NCBI RefSeq assembly: GCF_039831995.1
Contig: NZ_JBDOIO010000001.1
Location: 248,001 to 312,000, forward strand
Direction of reading: 5' to 3'
DNA length: 64,000 nucleotides
Source: Paenibacillus pabuli
Lineage (GTDB): Bacteria > Bacillota > Bacilli > Paenibacillales > Paenibacillaceae
How positions within the stretch are numbered: position 1 is the stretch's first letter; every line of letters begins with the position of its first letter. The notes below the pieces were generated by a model. The model was given only the letters and a program-made list of their open reading frames with translations. It was not told the DNA's origin and made no database searches. This document shows, one piece after another, positions 51,395 to 57,781 of the stretch. Made by a program: the position numbers and the translations under genes.

Positions 51395-52258
51395 ATGAAA
51401 TTTACAGCGCTAAATTTACGCACGTTTTTATTTGAATCTCAGAAGTTTTTTGATAGGACTGCAGAGACTGGAACATTGTTCAGAAAAGAAACCTACCCTG
51501 TCACGAATCTCTTTATTGATCCGGCTACGAATACAGGAATGGCAATTTTTACACAAGACGGTGAACTGGTAGCTGGATTCCGGGCTGAAATCATGGGTGA
51601 CGATAAAATCCAGTACCGACGGGACTTATACAATGTTATTTCCGAATTACATAAGAAGTTCAATTTCGGAAATATCTATTTTGAGGAAGTATTTGTCGGA
51701 AAATCCTTTGATACGCTGAAAGTTTTACTCAGCATTCGGCAGACTTTCTTTGAAATTGAGAAAGACTTAGGTATCCGGGCATTGGGCGTCAATAATAAGC
51801 GTTGGAAAGCTGCACTCGGACGGAAAATTTACGAGGATGATAAAGAAAATATACGTCATCACGTTAGTCAAACATTTGATATTAATAACATTCCTCAAGA
51901 TACAATCGATGCGATCGGTATGGGAATGGCTGTACTTAGACGAAACGCGATGGTTGTAACTCTACCTCCTAAAAGTGCTTTCAAGTACTATTTATATCTG
52001 GTTGAGGAACCTGAGGATGTTACTGAAATTATTCTCAAGAATCACAAGAAATTGTTCCAGGAACACGGCTTTAACTTTTTCTCTTATAATACTACTGAGT
52101 TATTTAAACCGAATGCGCTGCATGCTCTGGCATATGACAATTTTACATGTGCATTAATTCCGCCACATCGATATTTCCCTCAAATTCTCTTACAAAATGG
52201 GATTCGGGAAATGGATACGCGGGATAAAAAACTATTGGTAGTATTTCATAGAAAGTAA
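51395..52258 (+). CDS. RuvC-like RNase H-fold nuclease, 287 aa
   Basis: N-terminal strand LFIDPATNTGMAIFTQDGEL (catalytic Asp, like DPGxxxxG of RuvC), then NIYFEEVFVGKS (catalytic Glu) and QDTIDAIGMGMAVLR (DxxDA with the last catalytic Asp). These are the features of RuvC/YqgF-type Holliday-junction resolvases. The C-terminal 100 residues are extra and unrecognised (LYLVEEPEDVTEIILKNHKK). It probably resolves branched replication intermediates. Upstream spacing is 7 nt. Confidence 0.8.
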   Translation: MKFTALNLRTFLFESQKFFDRTAETGTLFRKETYPVTNLFIDPATNTGMAIFTQDGELVAGFRAEIMGDDKIQYRRDLYNVISELHKKFNFGNIYFEEVFVGKSFDTLKVLLSIRQTFFEIEKDLGIRALGVNNKRWKAALGRKIYEDDKENIRHHVSQTFDINNIPQDTIDAIGMGMAVLRRNAMVVTLPPKSAFKYYLYLVEEPEDVTEIILKNHKKLFQEHGFNFFSYNTTELFKPNALHALAYDNFTCALIPPHRYFPQILLQNGIREMDTRDKKLLVVFHRK

Positions 52259-52277
52259 CTGAAAGGTGGTTTCATCG

Positions 52278-53456
52278 TTGAGTAGAGTTCAAGAGTTAGT
52301 GACCAGTCTGCGAGCAGCAGACACTGCTTATTATGATCCAGAATTGAAGCCGATTATGCAGGATCATGAGTACGATCTTTTACACGGAGAGTTGATTGCT
52401 CTCGATCCCAACAACGAATACTTCAATGAAGTTGGTGGCGTTGTTGGAGAGCAGAGTGAGTATGACGCAATTCTACGTGGACATGCTCCAATGAAATCGA
52501 TAGTTTCAATTTTCAATGAGAAAGATGCCATTGGTTATGGGATACATAGATACGATTGGTTGCTGATGGCTAAAGCGGATGGTCAGGCATTTGAGGCCTT
52601 GTACCTCTACGGTAAGTTAGTATTTGTAACTACTCGTGGACGTGAGGGCAACAATGGCCGAAATATCACTGCACAGATGCGGCATGTTATTCCTAACTAT
52701 GTTGAAGAACTTTCCTCATACCCTTCAGTTACTATCTATGGCGAGGGTGTAATTTTATATCAAGATTTCGAACGGATGAAAGAACGTTATCCTGAAATCT
52801 CTAATATTCGTAATTCAGTATCAACATTCTTTAAGGATAATTTTAATATTGAAGACATCGAATATTTTACAGCTCTTGCTTATAATATCGACTTCGATGA
52901 TGCACCTAATACTCGATTAGGCAGATTGCAGTTACTGCAACATATCGGTTTCCGAACAGTAGATGTAGTTAATTATGAGGGCGATCCTATTGAATCTCCC
53001 TATAACCTCGATAAATATTCATTCGAGTACTTGACAGACGGACTTGTCCTCTGTGTAAATTCTCAGGACTTATTCGAAGAAATCGGTGGTAATGATAAAC
53101 ACGATGATGGGCAGATTGCACTCAAGTACGGTAACTGGGAATCCCCTGATTTCTCAGCCATCGTTGAGGATATTGTATGGAGTGCAGGCAAACAAAGATT
53201 TACCCCTATCGCTGAAATCGAACCCTTCTATACTCCGAGTGGTAAGAGAATTGAAAATGTCTCTTTGAGTAATGTAGCAACAATCATCAAACATCAAATT
53301 CTACCTGGTACTCGAATTTACTTTAAATATCAGTCTGAGATTGTGCCGATGTTCCTCTATAGCGAGCATACTATGGGTGAAGAGTATGAGGAAAATGACG
53401 ATGAATACGATGACGATGATGAGAACTGGGACGAAGAAGGATGGGACGAAGAATGA
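52278..53456 (+). CDS. ligA-N: NAD-dependent DNA ligase, N-terminal half (adenylation + OB), 392 aa
   Basis: Start placed at TTG 52278 behind GAAAGGTGG. The Ia domain is near the front (AADTAYYDPELKPIMQDHEY). The adenylation motif is KADGQAFEALY with the nucleophile Lys at residue 99. TTRGREGNNGRNIT, YGEGVI, LTDGLVLCVN, ALKYGN and RFTPIAEIEPFYTPSGKRIE with NVSLSN cover the rest of the nucleotidyltransferase and the OB start. The protein stops after the OB region with an acidic tail (DDDDENWDEEGWDEE). Zinc finger, HhH and BRCT parts are missing but are encoded at 56180. Together the two halves have the length of one LigA. Confidence 0.9.
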   Translation: MSRVQELVTSLRAADTAYYDPELKPIMQDHEYDLLHGELIALDPNNEYFNEVGGVVGEQSEYDAILRGHAPMKSIVSIFNEKDAIGYGIHRYDWLLMAKADGQAFEALYLYGKLVFVTTRGREGNNGRNITAQMRHVIPNYVEELSSYPSVTIYGEGVILYQDFERMKERYPEISNIRNSVSTFFKDNFNIEDIEYFTALAYNIDFDDAPNTRLGRLQLLQHIGFRTVDVVNYEGDPIESPYNLDKYSFEYLTDGLVLCVNSQDLFEEIGGNDKHDDGQIALKYGNWESPDFSAIVEDIVWSAGKQRFTPIAEIEPFYTPSGKRIENVSLSNVATIIKHQILPGTRIYFKYQSEIVPMFLYSEHTMGEEYEENDDEYDDDDENWDEEGWDEE

Positions 53457-53499
53457 AAACTATTTTAGATTTAACTCTGGTCAATAAGGAGGATAGTCA

Positions 53500-55218
53500 A
53501 TGAGTGAGAAAATTACTAAATTAACTGAAGAAGCCCGTAATCTCGTTCAGGATATCGAAGTAATCCGTGAGAATGAACCAGACAATGTAGAACTCATTAA
53601 TTCTCAATTACAGCGACTGAAAGAGGTACGCGAAGAAATCTTCAAATTACATGAGCAGCAGGAGACTGGTAATACTGAATCGAATCCTGATACTCAGGGT
53701 TCCGGGGACGGATACGATCCAGGAGACGATGATGAGCCTGAGGAACCGGATGAGGATTTCGATGATGAAGAGGAATATGACAGCGACGACGATGATTCTG
53801 ATGAGGATGATGAGGACTCAGATGAGGATTTCGACGAAGATTCAGATGAAGACTTCGACGAAGATTCTGATGAAGATTCCGACGAGGATCCTGACGAGGA
53901 TTTCGATGATGACTCGGATGAAGATAACGATGAGGATTCTGACGAGGATAATGATCCTGATGAAAATGACAATCCCCCAGAAGGTCAGAGTAATCTGAAC
54001 TATGTACCTGACAGTACGAAGGAATTAGCTGATGATTTCCAACGATCATTTCAGGATATGTCATTGACTAAAGAGCAGGAAAAGAAAATTGAGAATACTA
54101 CAATGGAAGACTTGAAGGAAGAAGTTAAAGCTTCCGGAGTATGTTCGACTCTCACAATCTATAATTCTGATGGTGTTGAAGTTGGACCTCTACAAAAAGG
54201 TGAAATGTTTATTGCAGATATTCCTCTCGAACTGTTGCATCTTCCTCCTGCTGCCAGAATGAATTTACGTGAAGTTGAGGACTTGGAGATAAGTTTTGCC
54301 GAAGTTGGGCAGATTGAGCCTATTCATGTAATACCCTTCGAAGCATCAGAAGGTTTCATTATTGTAAGTGGTAAGCGTCGATTCGTTGCTGCAAGTAACT
54401 TATCTATGAGGACTATTCGGGCAGTTGTTGACACAACACGGAGTAAGACTTGGATTCGTTACCTTGAATTGGTGATTAACAGTACACGTAAGCCTTACAA
54501 CTTTAAAGAGATTATGACTGCCGGTAACTTTGTCAATTCTAAACAACCTCACCTTTCTACTGATGTTATTGATAGACTCCTTGGTATTCCCCCTGGTTCA
54601 TTCCTCGAAGGTAAAATGCTCCTAATTGAACCCGTCGATACAGAAATCCTTATGAAGCTGTCTATGGGTAAGCTAAGCATTACTCAAGCTTACAAAGCCT
54701 TGACTAAGAAACGCGAGAAAGAGGAAAAAGAGTTAGAGAAACTGGCCGCTGAGCAAGGGCTTGATCTTGGTGACCTACGTCCTGTAGATTATAGTGACGT
54801 CGATCGAACTCCTAACTATCAAACTACTGGTGATGGACGTCGACCTCTTGAGCGCTGGTTAACCGAAGCAATTGAGCGACGGGATAATCGTACTTGTCAG
54901 TGCTGTGGACTAGGTCATGACGAGGAATCCTATATTTCTTGTATTTACGAAAAACACCATATGATTCCGGTATCTAAGAATGGTCCGGATAGTGAAGACA
55001 ATCTTATCTTACTTTGTAAGAACTGTCACTCTATTGTTCATGCTATTGTTGACGCTCGCTTCATGCCTGAAAAAGGCCGTGAAGAAGAGTTCCATAATCA
55101 CATTGTACTTGCAAAAATCATCACTGATGGACCCGCAGGTTACACACCATTCGATAGGTACCAAAAGGAGTACATCAATTTCTGGGGTACACCTACACTA
55201 ATACAGGAGGTTCAGTAA
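53500..55218 (+). CDS. ParB-like/HNH nuclease fusion with a long acidic linker, 572 aa
   Basis: ATG behind AAGGAGG. Parts in order: a coiled-coil front (about 1-55) and an extremely acidic Asp/Glu/Ser stretch with DEDFDEDSDED units (about 70-160). A ParB N-terminal-like domain follows (about 237-345: RMNLREVEDLEISFAEVGQI, FIIVSGKRRFVAASNL), then a helical region like a ParB HTH (KLSMGKLSITQAYKAL). A C-terminal HNH domain (about 463-515) has CQCCGLG, EKHHMIPVSKNG, DNLILLCKNCHS. ParB-fold domains bind CTP or act as nucleases in some families; HNH cuts DNA with a metal. It lies between the two ligase halves. Confidence 0.85.
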   Translation: MSEKITKLTEEARNLVQDIEVIRENEPDNVELINSQLQRLKEVREEIFKLHEQQETGNTESNPDTQGSGDGYDPGDDDEPEEPDEDFDDEEEYDSDDDDSDEDDEDSDEDFDEDSDEDFDEDSDEDSDEDPDEDFDDDSDEDNDEDSDEDNDPDENDNPPEGQSNLNYVPDSTKELADDFQRSFQDMSLTKEQEKKIENTTMEDLKEEVKASGVCSTLTIYNSDGVEVGPLQKGEMFIADIPLELLHLPPAARMNLREVEDLEISFAEVGQIEPIHVIPFEASEGFIIVSGKRRFVAASNLSMRTIRAVVDTTRSKTWIRYLELVINSTRKPYNFKEIMTAGNFVNSKQPHLSTDVIDRLLGIPPGSFLEGKMLLIEPVDTEILMKLSMGKLSITQAYKALTKKREKEEKELEKLAAEQGLDLGDLRPVDYSDVDRTPNYQTTGDGRRPLERWLTEAIERRDNRTCQCCGLGHDEESYISCIYEKHHMIPVSKNGPDSEDNLILLCKNCHSIVHAIVDARFMPEKGREEEFHNHIVLAKIITDGPAGYTPFDRYQKEYINFWGTPTLIQEVQ

Positions 55219-55220
55219 TA

Positions 55221-55625
55221 ATGAGTAATTTACGTTCAGCTAGGGGTTCTGCTACTAATGGTCAGAACGTACCGACTTCGCGAGGACAGGCAGGTAAGCA
55301 GGCCAACGCGAAGAAGGTGACACCAAAACGGGTAAAATTGATGACACTTTTACTTTCAATTTGTACCTGTATTTTCGCTATTCCTCTCGCTATTCAGGGG
55401 GCTTATGATGATCAAGCCTTGGTAGGTATTCCAACTATGCGTATCGCTATCTATGATTTGATCATTCTCGTAGTAATCAGTTTGATTACGCAAGGTATTT
55501 ACCATCTCATGGGATCTACATCCAAGCAGAAACTTATCATTCAGGGTGATATTCTCAAGGTATTTATCCTTGTAGCACTTGCTATTTACGGAGCATTCCG
55601 CGGTATCCTTTACCTGTACATGTAA
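55221..55625 (+). CDS. Membrane protein, 134 aa
   Basis: Starts 2 nt after the previous stop with TACAGGAGG as ribosome site. The N-terminal 40 residues are basic, Ser/Gln/Gly/Lys-rich and disordered. Three membrane helices follow (LMTLLLSICTCIFAIPLAI, IAIYDLIILVVISLITQGIY, LKVFILVALAIYGAFRGILY). Its basic tail could face DNA or the acidic proteins encoded next to it. Function unknown. Confidence 0.7.
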   Translation: MSNLRSARGSATNGQNVPTSRGQAGKQANAKKVTPKRVKLMTLLLSICTCIFAIPLAIQGAYDDQALVGIPTMRIAIYDLIILVVISLITQGIYHLMGSTSKQKLIIQGDILKVFILVALAIYGAFRGILYLYM

Positions 55626-55687
55626 TTAATCATCTTTATCGCGGCGGTAACACTAAGTTTTAGAAAAAATAAAGGAGGTATTAATCA

Positions 55688-56152
55688 ATGGGTTGGATTA
55701 TTCTGATTTTCTTTATCTGGCTTCTGTTCTTCAGTGGTAAGAAAAAGGGTCAATCTGGTGGTGGTCAACGTCCTAGCGGGCAGCCTACTATGAATGCAGC
55801 ACCTCCGCCTAGACAACCTGCTCCTATGGTTGGTCCTGGTGGACCGGGACCTGGTGGACCTGGCGCTCCGGGTGGAATGCAACGTCCACCTGGACCTGGT
55901 CCGGGTGGTCCTGGTATGGGTGCTCCTGGTATGGGTCCTGGACCTGGTGGAATGCCAAATCGACCTCCTGGTCCGGGTGGTCCCGGTGGAATGCCTGGTG
56001 GTCCTGGTGCTCCTGGCGGAATGCCGAGACCTCCTGGTCCTGGTGGTCCTGGCGGTATGCCGGGTGGACCTCGTTCACAGGGTCCAAATTCTGTGGATGA
56101 GAGAAATAATAAAATCCTAAATATGACCAATACACCTAATATTGATATTTAG
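55688..56152 (+). CDS. Membrane-anchored Gly/Pro-rich, collagen-like low-complexity protein, 154 aa
   Basis: ATG behind AAAGGAGG. One N-terminal membrane helix (WIILIFFIWLLFFSG), KKKG, then about 110 residues built from Gly, Pro and Met (GPGGPGAPGGM, PGMGPGPGGM, PGGMPGG), and a short polar end. The repeats are collagen-like but irregular, so a triple helix is uncertain; a disordered spacer is also possible. The topology puts the repeats inside or outside depending on the orientation of the single helix. Function unknown. Confidence 0.7.
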   Translation: MGWIILIFFIWLLFFSGKKKGQSGGGQRPSGQPTMNAAPPPRQPAPMVGPGGPGPGGPGAPGGMQRPPGPGPGGPGMGAPGMGPGPGGMPNRPPGPGGPGGMPGGPGAPGGMPRPPGPGGPGGMPGGPRSQGPNSVDERNNKILNMTNTPNIDI

Positions 56153-56179
56153 TTTAGATTTTTAGGAGGTTTATAGATT

Positions 56180-57043
56180 ATGTTAGTGTCAGCATTATTG
56201 GAGAAATTACCTGAGTATAATTCTTTCATTCCTAGTATCTGTTTCTTCTGTGAGGAACCTTTAACTCTGAATGAGAAAATGACATCTCTTAAATGTGAAA
56301 ATCCATTATGTGCCGGATTTTTAGGAAATCGAATTTCTGCGATGGCTGCTGTTCTGGGAATCAAGGGTTTCGGTGAAGCTGTATGTGAGGACATTGTTTA
56401 CAAGCATGACCTCAAGAAAATTCATGAAATTTTTGAATTGGCACCAGAATCACTAACTGATCTATATCTTTCTGAGAACAATATCAAATTACACGGTAAA
56501 TTGATCGATGGTATTACAAATGTGGTTTTATCTGATGCAATTACCTCAATGTGTCTGATAGGTATTGGTGATAAATTAGCACGGAAAATTTTCGAAGGTT
56601 ATACTGATATGGATACTTTCTACGCTGATTTTGATACCGATGATCGTTTTATTATTAAGAAGCTTGGTAAGGAAGCTACAGCTCACGGATCAAGCGATTA
56701 CAATTTCAAGAAGCAGATTCCTCATATTCGACAAGTACTCGAAGTCGGACGTGAGGAAATCTGTAAATTCGTTTCATACTTTACGATTAAACAGATTCCC
56801 AAGGATGCGATTAACATCACTATTACTGGTGGGGTACCTGGATATTCCAATAAAGAAAAATTCGTAGAAATGTTAAATTCTAAGTACTCCAAATATATCG
56901 TATTAAACAAGAGTCTAACAAAGGATATCAAGTATCTTATTGTAAATAGTAAGGAAGAGACCCGAAAAACTAAAGACGCTGCTAAATACGGTACAATTGT
57001 TTTAACTTCTGCTGAATTTGTCGAACTAGTTCAGGCTATGTAA
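56180..57043 (+). CDS. ligA-C: NAD-dependent DNA ligase, C-terminal half (zinc finger, HhH, BRCT), 287 aa
   Basis: ATG behind TAGGAGG. The zinc finger SICFFCEEPL with LKCENPLCAG (four Cys, as in LigA) lies at about 19-46. Helix-hairpin-helix segments are VLGIKGFGEAVCEDIV and LIGIGDKLARKIFEG, and the BRCT domain lies at about 210-287 (INITITGGVPGYSNKEKF, YLIVNSKEETRKTKDAAKYG). No adenylation domain is present. It supplies exactly the parts missing from the gene at 52278, from which it is separated by the ParB-HNH gene and two membrane genes. It should act in trans as the DNA-clamping half of a split ligase. Confidence 0.87.
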   Translation: MLVSALLEKLPEYNSFIPSICFFCEEPLTLNEKMTSLKCENPLCAGFLGNRISAMAAVLGIKGFGEAVCEDIVYKHDLKKIHEIFELAPESLTDLYLSENNIKLHGKLIDGITNVVLSDAITSMCLIGIGDKLARKIFEGYTDMDTFYADFDTDDRFIIKKLGKEATAHGSSDYNFKKQIPHIRQVLEVGREEICKFVSYFTIKQIPKDAINITITGGVPGYSNKEKFVEMLNSKYSKYIVLNKSLTKDIKYLIVNSKEETRKTKDAAKYGTIVLTSAEFVELVQAM

Positions 57044-57079: not shown

Positions 57080-57751
57080 ATGTTTAAGGACTTTGATGTT
57101 GCGTTCCAACCTATATATAGAACAGGTAGCGACGATATCTTTGGTTTTGAAGTCCTACTTCGAAGTGATATTCCTCCAACTGAACTCTTTAGTCGTGCTA
57201 AAACTGTGAATGACTTTCATTTATTGGATAGGCAGAGTCGATCTCTTGCATCACAAAATTTTCATCTAAGTAACTCGACACTGTTCCTTAACAGTCATCC
57301 ACTTACCGTGCTTTATGATGAATACTTTCATCAGGACATATATGACCTCCTTCATAACAATAATGTTGTAGTCGAAATAACTGAGCAAGAAATTCCAGAC
57401 TTTGGATTACTCCAATACCGAATAGCACAACTTCGGGAAATGGGTGCTCATGTTGCTCTTGATGATTTTGGTACCGGGTATACAAATTTCCAGACACTGC
57501 GCTACATTCAACCTGACTTTTTGAAGATTGATCGGAGTTACATCGAATCATTAACTACTGACTTGACATCCAAACAGGTAACGGATTTTATCTTGCGTTA
57601 TGCTACAGATTTGGAATGTCAAATAGTGGTTGAGGGAATTGAGGATTTCGATCAGTTAAATTATGTATCTGGTAATAATGTAGGATATGCGCAAGGATAT
57701 TTACTAGGGGTACCGGTTTTGAGCGGTGAATTTCGAGGAACTTATTGTTAA
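57080..57751 (+). CDS. EAL-domain cyclic-di-GMP phosphodiesterase, 223 aa
   Basis: A stand-alone EAL domain with its catalytic residues in place: FQPIYRT, FGFEVLLRS (EVL in place of EAL, Glu kept), LFLNSHP (Asn), VVVEITEQE (Glu), VALDDFGTGYTNF (DDFGTG), DFLKIDRSYI (Lys), IVVEGIED and AQGYLLGVP (Gln). It should hydrolyse c-di-GMP to pGpG in the cytoplasm. No sensor or GGDEF domain is attached. On a conjugative element it could lower c-di-GMP to change motility, biofilm or adhesion of the host. A consensus promoter begins directly after its stop. Confidence 0.88.
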   Translation: MFKDFDVAFQPIYRTGSDDIFGFEVLLRSDIPPTELFSRAKTVNDFHLLDRQSRSLASQNFHLSNSTLFLNSHPLTVLYDEYFHQDIYDLLHNNNVVVEITEQEIPDFGLLQYRIAQLREMGAHVALDDFGTGYTNFQTLRYIQPDFLKIDRSYIESLTTDLTSKQVTDFILRYATDLECQIVVEGIEDFDQLNYVSGNNVGYAQGYLLGVPVLSGEFRGTYC

Positions 57752-57752
57752 G

Positions 57753-57781
57753 TTGACATACTACTAATTATTTGGTATAAT
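57753..57781 (+). promoter_or_regulatory. Consensus sigma-A promoter
   Basis: TTGACA (57753-57758), 17-nt spacer, TATAAT (57776-57781): both boxes and the spacing are ideal. It begins 2 nt after the EAL gene stop and drives the small genes behind it. Confidence 0.9.

Follow-up and report, generated by a model that had tools for sequence, protein, structure and literature searches.

A probable two-subunit NAD-dependent DNA ligase encoded by separate genes on a plasmid-like replicon of Paenibacillus pabuli

Results and Discussion

The stretch of DNA analyzed here (64,000 nucleotides of Paenibacillus pabuli, hereafter the window) spans positions 248001-312000 of C1, a contig of 320,510 bp from a five-contig genome of 6.95 Mb. 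Two genes of the window, beginning at positions 52278 and 56180, each encode one part of the NAD-dependent DNA ligase LigA and are candidates for the two halves of a single enzyme (Table 1). They are separated by 2,723 bp and three genes, one for a protein with ParB and HNH domains (ParB-HNH) and two for small proteins. The initial annotation had placed a ParB-HNH gene and two membrane genes in an interval of 2.7 kb; the length and the ParB-HNH gene were borne out, whereas the membrane nature of the two small proteins is a reading of their hydrophobic stretches.

Table 1. Features of the split ligase locus and its neighbors, with two further large proteins (window positions, except in the last row).
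Feature	Coordinates	Strand	Basis
Predicted ligase N-subunit, 392 aa: Ia, adenylation, OB, then a 30-residue tail	52278..53456	+	Profiles, alignments, relative P0004
Motif I KADG, Lys-99 to Gly-102, with predicted AMP-attachment lysine	52572..52583	+	Aligned to KLDG of E. coli LigA
Acidic C-terminal tail of N-subunit, 19 D/E of 30 (P0004: 13 of 25)	53364..53453	+	Sequence count
Predicted ligase C-subunit, 287 aa: Cys4 zinc finger (C21, C24, C39, C44), HhH, BRCT, 16-residue N-terminal extension	56180..57043	+	Profiles, alignment, relatives
RuvC-like protein, 19 bp upstream of N-subunit; counterpart directly precedes ParB-HNH in Bacillus plasmid	51395..52258	+	
ParB N-terminal domain + HNH protein, 572 aa, between halves; not a ligase part	53500..55218	+	Pfam, synteny with related plasmid
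134-aa protein between halves, hydrophobic stretches, no significant family match	55221..55625	+	Membrane nature read from sequence
154-aa protein between halves, one N-terminal hydrophobic stretch, collagen-like Gly/Pro-rich remainder, no significant family match	55688..56152	+	Membrane nature read from sequence
EAL-domain protein, 223 aa, 36 bp after C-subunit	57080..57751	+	Pfam
Two large proteins with a shared ~170-residue tail/endolysin-family stretch	L020:4290-8795 and L008:13740-16232		phrog_1696, 670

Two genes that together span the LigA profile

The initial annotation assigned the Ia, adenylation (KADG, Lys-99) and OB parts to the 52278 gene and the zinc finger, HhH and BRCT parts to the 56180 gene, and both assignments held. 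KADG lies at residues 99-102 of the first protein (the N-half), which matches positions 2-375 of the 652 in whole-ligase profile TIGR00575, while the second protein (the C-half), with its four zinc cysteines, matches positions 390-651 (E 1.2e-16). Since the two halves together span the profile save for the linker, the cut falls between the OB domain and the zinc finger, and the six parts of LigA are all present, spread over two chains. The full-length ligase family phrog_3869 (656 positions) gave the same picture, with the N-half matching at 7-377 and the C-half at 389-652 (E 3.8e-21). Pfam recognized DNA_ligase_aden in the 52278 protein (E 2e-13), with OB (E 6e-5) and Nlig-Ia (E 0.017) below cut-off; its matches to the 56180 protein were weak, BRCT falling below cut-off (E 0.06) and no HhH or zinc family being found in that scan. 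For NF005932, the N-half scored 100.7 bits and the C-half 50.7 bits, neither reaching the cut-off of 369. Cysteines 21, 24, 39, and 44 are invariant among the six stand-alone C-halves of our alignment, from which that of phage PTm1 (see below) was left out.

When compared to E. coli LigA (2owo) and 20 single-chain ligases, the N-half was found to retain Lys-99, Asp-101, Gly-102, Glu-156, Arg-178, Tyr-202, Asp-254, Gly-255, and Lys-283. Its gene starts with TTG at 52278 and stops at 53456; an alternative GTG at 52266 falls within the Shine-Dalgarno stretch, and the homologue P0004 (described below) also begins V-S-R, at the residue encoded at 52278. Strong ribosome sites had been claimed for both genes, which is correct for 56180 (AGGAGGT, 9 nt); the site of 52278 is moderate (GAAAGGTGG). 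There is no sign of decay, as had been noted at the outset: the frames are open and both chains are conserved (61-70%) with the same ends.

Relatives with the same split

Relatives with the same split point, which the initial annotation had proposed to seek, were found in a search of ~5.8 billion proteins. At a threshold of E <= 1e-5, the N-half gave eight sequences: itself, P0004 (387 aa, 70% identity), P0005 (402 aa), P0006 (431 aa), and four longer ligases (606-673 aa). P0005 and P0006, like P0004, end after the OB domain. The C-half gave two sequences, itself and P0002 (287 aa, 61%). Since P0002 and P0004 each come from one 6,631-bp JGI contig, they very likely share it. A profile of the two C-halves found a further relative, P0011 (296 aa, 30-31% identity, three contigs), among the 7,998 best word-sharing candidates scored. 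Identity was also calculated over eight blocks drawn by hand. Between the window and P0004, it was 64% in Ia, 70% in the adenylation domain, 88% in OB (63/72) and 33% in the tail (10/30); between the window and P0002, it was 50% in the N-terminal extension (8/16), 76% in the zinc region (26/34), 68% in HhH and 44% in BRCT (36/82). The domains flanking the cut are thus the most conserved of the eight blocks, and the loose ends at the cut vary.

No split locus of this kind appeared in seven scans of viral contigs or two scans of genome contigs. The C-half had no match among plasmid records and matched four phage records, representing two phages each listed twice (Kc263, which has a single chain, and OBP). 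It also matched 4 of 294 other genomes of the family, in every case within an open frame of 669-674 aa, i.e., a whole LigA, and among 75 genomes of the genus it matched only its own. With the N-half profile at E <= 1e-30, the sole match among 296 genomes of the order was likewise the genome of origin.

Trees were built from hand-chosen matches (29 rows for the N-half, 28 for the C-half) and contain many long branches; two rows, Host_L001 and Pmeg_FDU301, are stop-to-stop frames that include some residues before the start codon. The window N-half formed a clade with P0004, P0005, and P0006 (support 100/99), and the window C-half with P0002 and P0011 (99/99). That even distant stand-alone halves group with the window proteins in two independently built trees makes the split look old and maintained. 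It appears to be older than the window clade, provided that P0005 and P0006 have natural ends, which the agreement of those ends suggests. These two proteins have KxNG instead of KxDG as motif I and are without the RxGDVIP stretch of OB. Considering the loss of the motif I Asp and of part of the OB motif, their activity is doubtful and they are perhaps altered or inactive enzymes.

Split ligases of phages and the origin of the split

The initial annotation took LigA to be nearly always one chain. That overstated the rarity of the split, since two-subunit NAD-dependent ligases are already known in T5-like phages. Their subunits A and B (phrog_3359 and phrog_3498; here from Slocum, Pylo, and PSTCR5) are cut at the same OB/zinc-finger linker and carry the same domains per chain as the window pair, and phrog_3498 spans residues 17-283 of the 287 in the window C-half (E 2e-19). 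PDB entries 9hu3 and 9i5i contain both chains, one of 339 aa (A) and one of 248 aa that is named DNA ligase subunit B. Over residues 1-247, the B chain of PSTCR5 is identical to the latter, and the PSTCR5 A chain is closely related to the former. The two subunits are named or listed in excerpts of three papers on T5-like phages (PMC4319617, PMC7700153, PMC5519627), one of which states in the excerpt that both are needed to seal genome nicks. Our literature search found no paper on 9hu3/9i5i or on the biochemistry of a two-subunit NAD ligase, although one may still exist. The T5-like genes are adjacent in Slocum and PSTCR5 and parted by two genes in Vibrio phage Pylo, whereas the window halves are parted by three. 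Unlike the window pair, the three T5-like pairs compared have neither an acidic tail nor the 16-residue C-chain extension, and their carriers are phages rather than a plasmid-like replicon. What is new at the window locus is the plasmid-like carrier, the presence of three genes between the halves, and a deep lineage of its own.

Twelve hand-picked phage records were opened at the ligase, of which seven have a single chain and five have separate halves (Slocum, Pylo, PSTCR5, Tunturi_5, and PTm1). The jumbo phages Tunturi_5 and PTm1 resemble the window in having a stand-alone N-half and C-half far apart, but are not close to it in sequence. In Tunturi_5, the C-half (317 aa) lies ~3.2 kb from the N-half and both were annotated as ligase by the depositors; in PTm1, a 274-aa C-half without the zinc-finger cysteines lies ~15 kb from the N-half. 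The latter, ORF-179 of Tenacibaculum phage PTm1 (AP019524.1 134218-135042; L055:16719-17543), is annotated as hypothetical and is a putative stand-alone ligase C-half.

As regards origin rather than function, a single ancient fission may have been inherited by both the T5-like phages and the window lineage, with the plasmid taking up an already split pair. Approximately unbiased (AU) tests did not reject a clade of the four window-lineage N-halves and the three T5-like A chains (p 0.36), and the T5-like B chains follow directly after P0011 when the rows of the C-half tree are ranked by path length. However, the best trees set the two split lineages apart as separate supported clades, and the window proteins match the full-length family phrog_3869 better than the T5-like subunit families, by far for the N-half (9e-50 vs. 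1e-17) and slightly for the C-half (4e-21 vs. 2e-19). Grouping just the window pair with the T5-like rows was rejected (p 0.02), although that constraint leaves out P0005 and P0006, which group with the window. We regard a shared fission as possible, though less likely than not.

A two-subunit ligase and its alternatives

It is highly probable, in our judgment, that the products of the two genes are subunits of a single NAD-dependent DNA ligase. The initial annotation had suggested as much, and a two-subunit enzyme continues to be the best reading of a split that is kept in a relative diverged by 30-39%, of matching clades, and of a T5-like pair split at the same linker with both chains in structures. 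We infer that the N-subunit would bind NAD+ and take AMP on Lys-99, and that the C-subunit would dock on the OB face, at the place of the linker in single-chain LigA. Once docked, it would complete the DNA clamp and the pair would seal nicks. Since both genes belong to one co-directional run, the subunits could be made together. Indeed, one transcript is plausible considering the short gaps between successive genes across the RuvC-like to EAL interval (19, 43, 2, 62, 27, and 36 bp) and the positions of four terminator-like matches between 50400 and 57900, which are all on the forward strand and inside genes, with none between genes.

Several observations weigh against this interpretation. In the N-half, the motif IV lysine is replaced by Cys-259 and the OB arginine by Tyr-351, and relative to E. 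coli LigA two further arginines have become Lys-186 and Lys-246 and the Glu two residues before the motif I lysine is Met-97. We take all of these residues to matter in the E. coli enzyme. The motif IV lysine is also missing in some other phage ligases (Glu in SP-15, Thr in GXN1, Arg in the three T5-like A chains), and those three A chains have Thr or Ser in place of the Glu that lies two residues ahead of the nucleophile. AlphaFold models of the single chains were poor (pLDDT 34 and 47), having been built from two-row alignments only. The host has an intact LigA of its own, and the ATP-dependent ligase domain also matched twice in the host, so that the activity of a split pair is not strictly needed. 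The natural ends of P0005 and P0006, as well as the shared contig of P0002 and P0004, were deduced from protein records. Finally, terminator-like matches were as frequent as in shuffled sequence (4 observed vs. 4.2), making their absence between genes weak evidence.

The altered motif IV and OB residues would also suit halves that work apart, the N-subunit as an NAD-dependent adenylyltransferase or weak stand-alone ligase and the C-subunit as a DNA- or protein-binding factor that, e.g., recruits or competes with the host LigA. P0005 and P0006 depart still further at these motifs, and the C-half has its own HhH and BRCT domains. There is also a parallel in jumbo phages, where a stand-alone DNA-binding domain of ATP-dependent ligases is proposed, in an excerpt of PMC7824862, to recruit the host ligase. 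However, separate functions appear unlikely: both halves are kept together in the sole close relative, they form matching clades, and the OB and zinc blocks are the most conserved, as would be expected of partners.

The gene run and a related Bacillus plasmid

The HNH domain between the halves brings to mind a ligase gene broken, for example, by a mobile HNH element, with the pieces as leftovers on the way to loss. Excerpts of PMC2988022 report that homing endonucleases split phage genes and document HNH-driven splitting of phage enzymes. Two of its examples, NrdA of phage Aeh1 and gp43 of phage 25, are enzymes cut into two genes, like the window ligase, and the products reassemble into active enzyme; insertion of a homing endonuclease is implicated in both, although for gp43 this is described there as hard to ascertain. 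The host's intact LigA would likewise be compatible with loss. In contrast to those examples, the ParB-HNH gene keeps its place in a ligase-free spot of a related plasmid. ParB-HNH relatives occur in nine Bacillus plasmid records, two of which were opened; the gene comes after FtsK in NZ_CP089149 and after the DnaB-CHC2-RuvC-like genes in NZ_CP071971. The latter, a B. amyloliquefaciens plasmid, shares with the window the order SNF2 (37% identity), DnaB (26%), CHC2 (38% over 72 residues), RuvC-like (26% over 178 residues), and ParB-HNH (33%), with no ligase beside the ParB-HNH gene. Its only C-half match lies inside its own single-chain LigA (676 aa), which has the domain set and order of the window halves combined, is located ~32 kb away from the ParB-HNH gene (24 kb if measured from the nearest edge of the cluster), and falls outside the window ligase clade. 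Eight of eight plasmid records opened at the ligase have a single chain.

A related plasmid thus has ParB-HNH in the corresponding position but no ligase next to it, which disfavors homing insertion as the origin of the split. It is unlikely that ParB-HNH jumped into a ligA at this site; rather, two ligase genes stand on either side of it in this lineage. The initial annotation had weighed its reading against the possibility of intact single-gene relatives beside decayed halves, and this is not the situation found, as the Bacillus LigA is elsewhere on its plasmid and outside the clade and the window halves are undecayed. Even if a mobile element made the split, the pieces, with their open frames, ribosome sites and conservation as separate chains, look maintained now, and we consider a broken gene very improbable. 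Joining of the chains after translation into one LigA, by an intein or trans-splicing, is hardly credible: the halves are complementary with nothing beyond, but the acidic tail (30 residues) and the ~16 residues that precede the zinc finger leave no room for an intein, and no intein family matched either chain in Pfam or NCBIfam scans.

Two further observations were made in this gene run. The ParB-HNH fusion (window 53500-55218) contains a long Asp/Glu/Ser tract, and a 12/12 match to a sigma-70 promoter (TTGACA, 17, TATAAT, with TG before the second hexamer) lies at window 57753-57781, just past the EAL gene and the ligase gene run.

The replicon and its host

C1 (~320 kb) is a plasmid-like replicon and a putative plasmid. 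Its stretches have a G+C content of 37-39%, vs. 45-53% in the other four contigs (first 5 kb of each), and 351 of its 362 frames (kept frames of at least 100 aa) are on the forward strand. As a check for circularity, the last 21-200 bases of C1 were compared with its first 20 kb and did not recur there. Among selected proteins, C1 matches included family A DNA polymerase, GyrA, GyrB, ribonucleotide reductase, UvrD, two type II/IV secretion ATPases, FtsK, a DnaB-type helicase, an SNF2 helicase and a clamp-loader subunit, and a CHC2-type protein is also among its replication genes. The ligase pair may serve the replicon's own replication genes, namely those for the family A polymerase, DnaB-type helicase, CHC2-type protein, clamp loader and gyrase subunits. 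Two adenylation domains were found in the genome, one on C1 and the other in the intact LigA that the host carries on contig C5, and the C-half likewise matched once on C1 and once in the C-part of the host LigA. The latter is 670 aa from its ATG, and its best match in the plasmid collection is from Paenibacillus cellulosilyticus (70%). A TROVE (Ro60-type) domain protein is encoded on the same replicon at C1 175418-177025 (L018:15418-17025).

A phage or prophage nature of the replicon was considered and set aside. The TerL family PF03354 had no match in the genome (the same family matched 3 of 14 control genomes). Phage structural genes may nonetheless be present, as the PHROGs scan covered ten large proteins. 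Among these, there were tail-family matches. Tail family phrog_1696 and lysis families 670 and 20208 matched a stretch at one end of two of the proteins (Table 1, last row), possibly a surface-binding domain. There was one partial match to phrog_7440, another major tail family, and a long coiled-coil-like protein matched tape-measure families weakly. The FtsK-type protein also matches terminase family phrog_2666 (2e-11), but less well than FtsK families.

Conclusion

The two-subunit ligase plan would not be confined to T5-like phages, since it would also be found in a deep, separate lineage on a large plasmid-like replicon. Because the cut point is shared, a testable statement follows, i.e., that the OB/zinc-finger linker is dispensable and that the surfaces on either side of it assemble unaided. 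A second pair, distant from the phage ones whose structures are deposited, would allow the rules of the interface to be compared, and may offer a natural template for a ligase that is switched on by mixing two parts. What is of wider interest is that one cut point is used repeatedly. It is conceivable, at a little short of an even chance, that large mobile elements (the window lineage, T5-like phages, Tunturi_5, and PTm1) split LigA at this linker on several independent occasions. LigA would then be a two-module machine, whose catalytic and DNA-clamp halves may be made, regulated and possibly exchanged separately.

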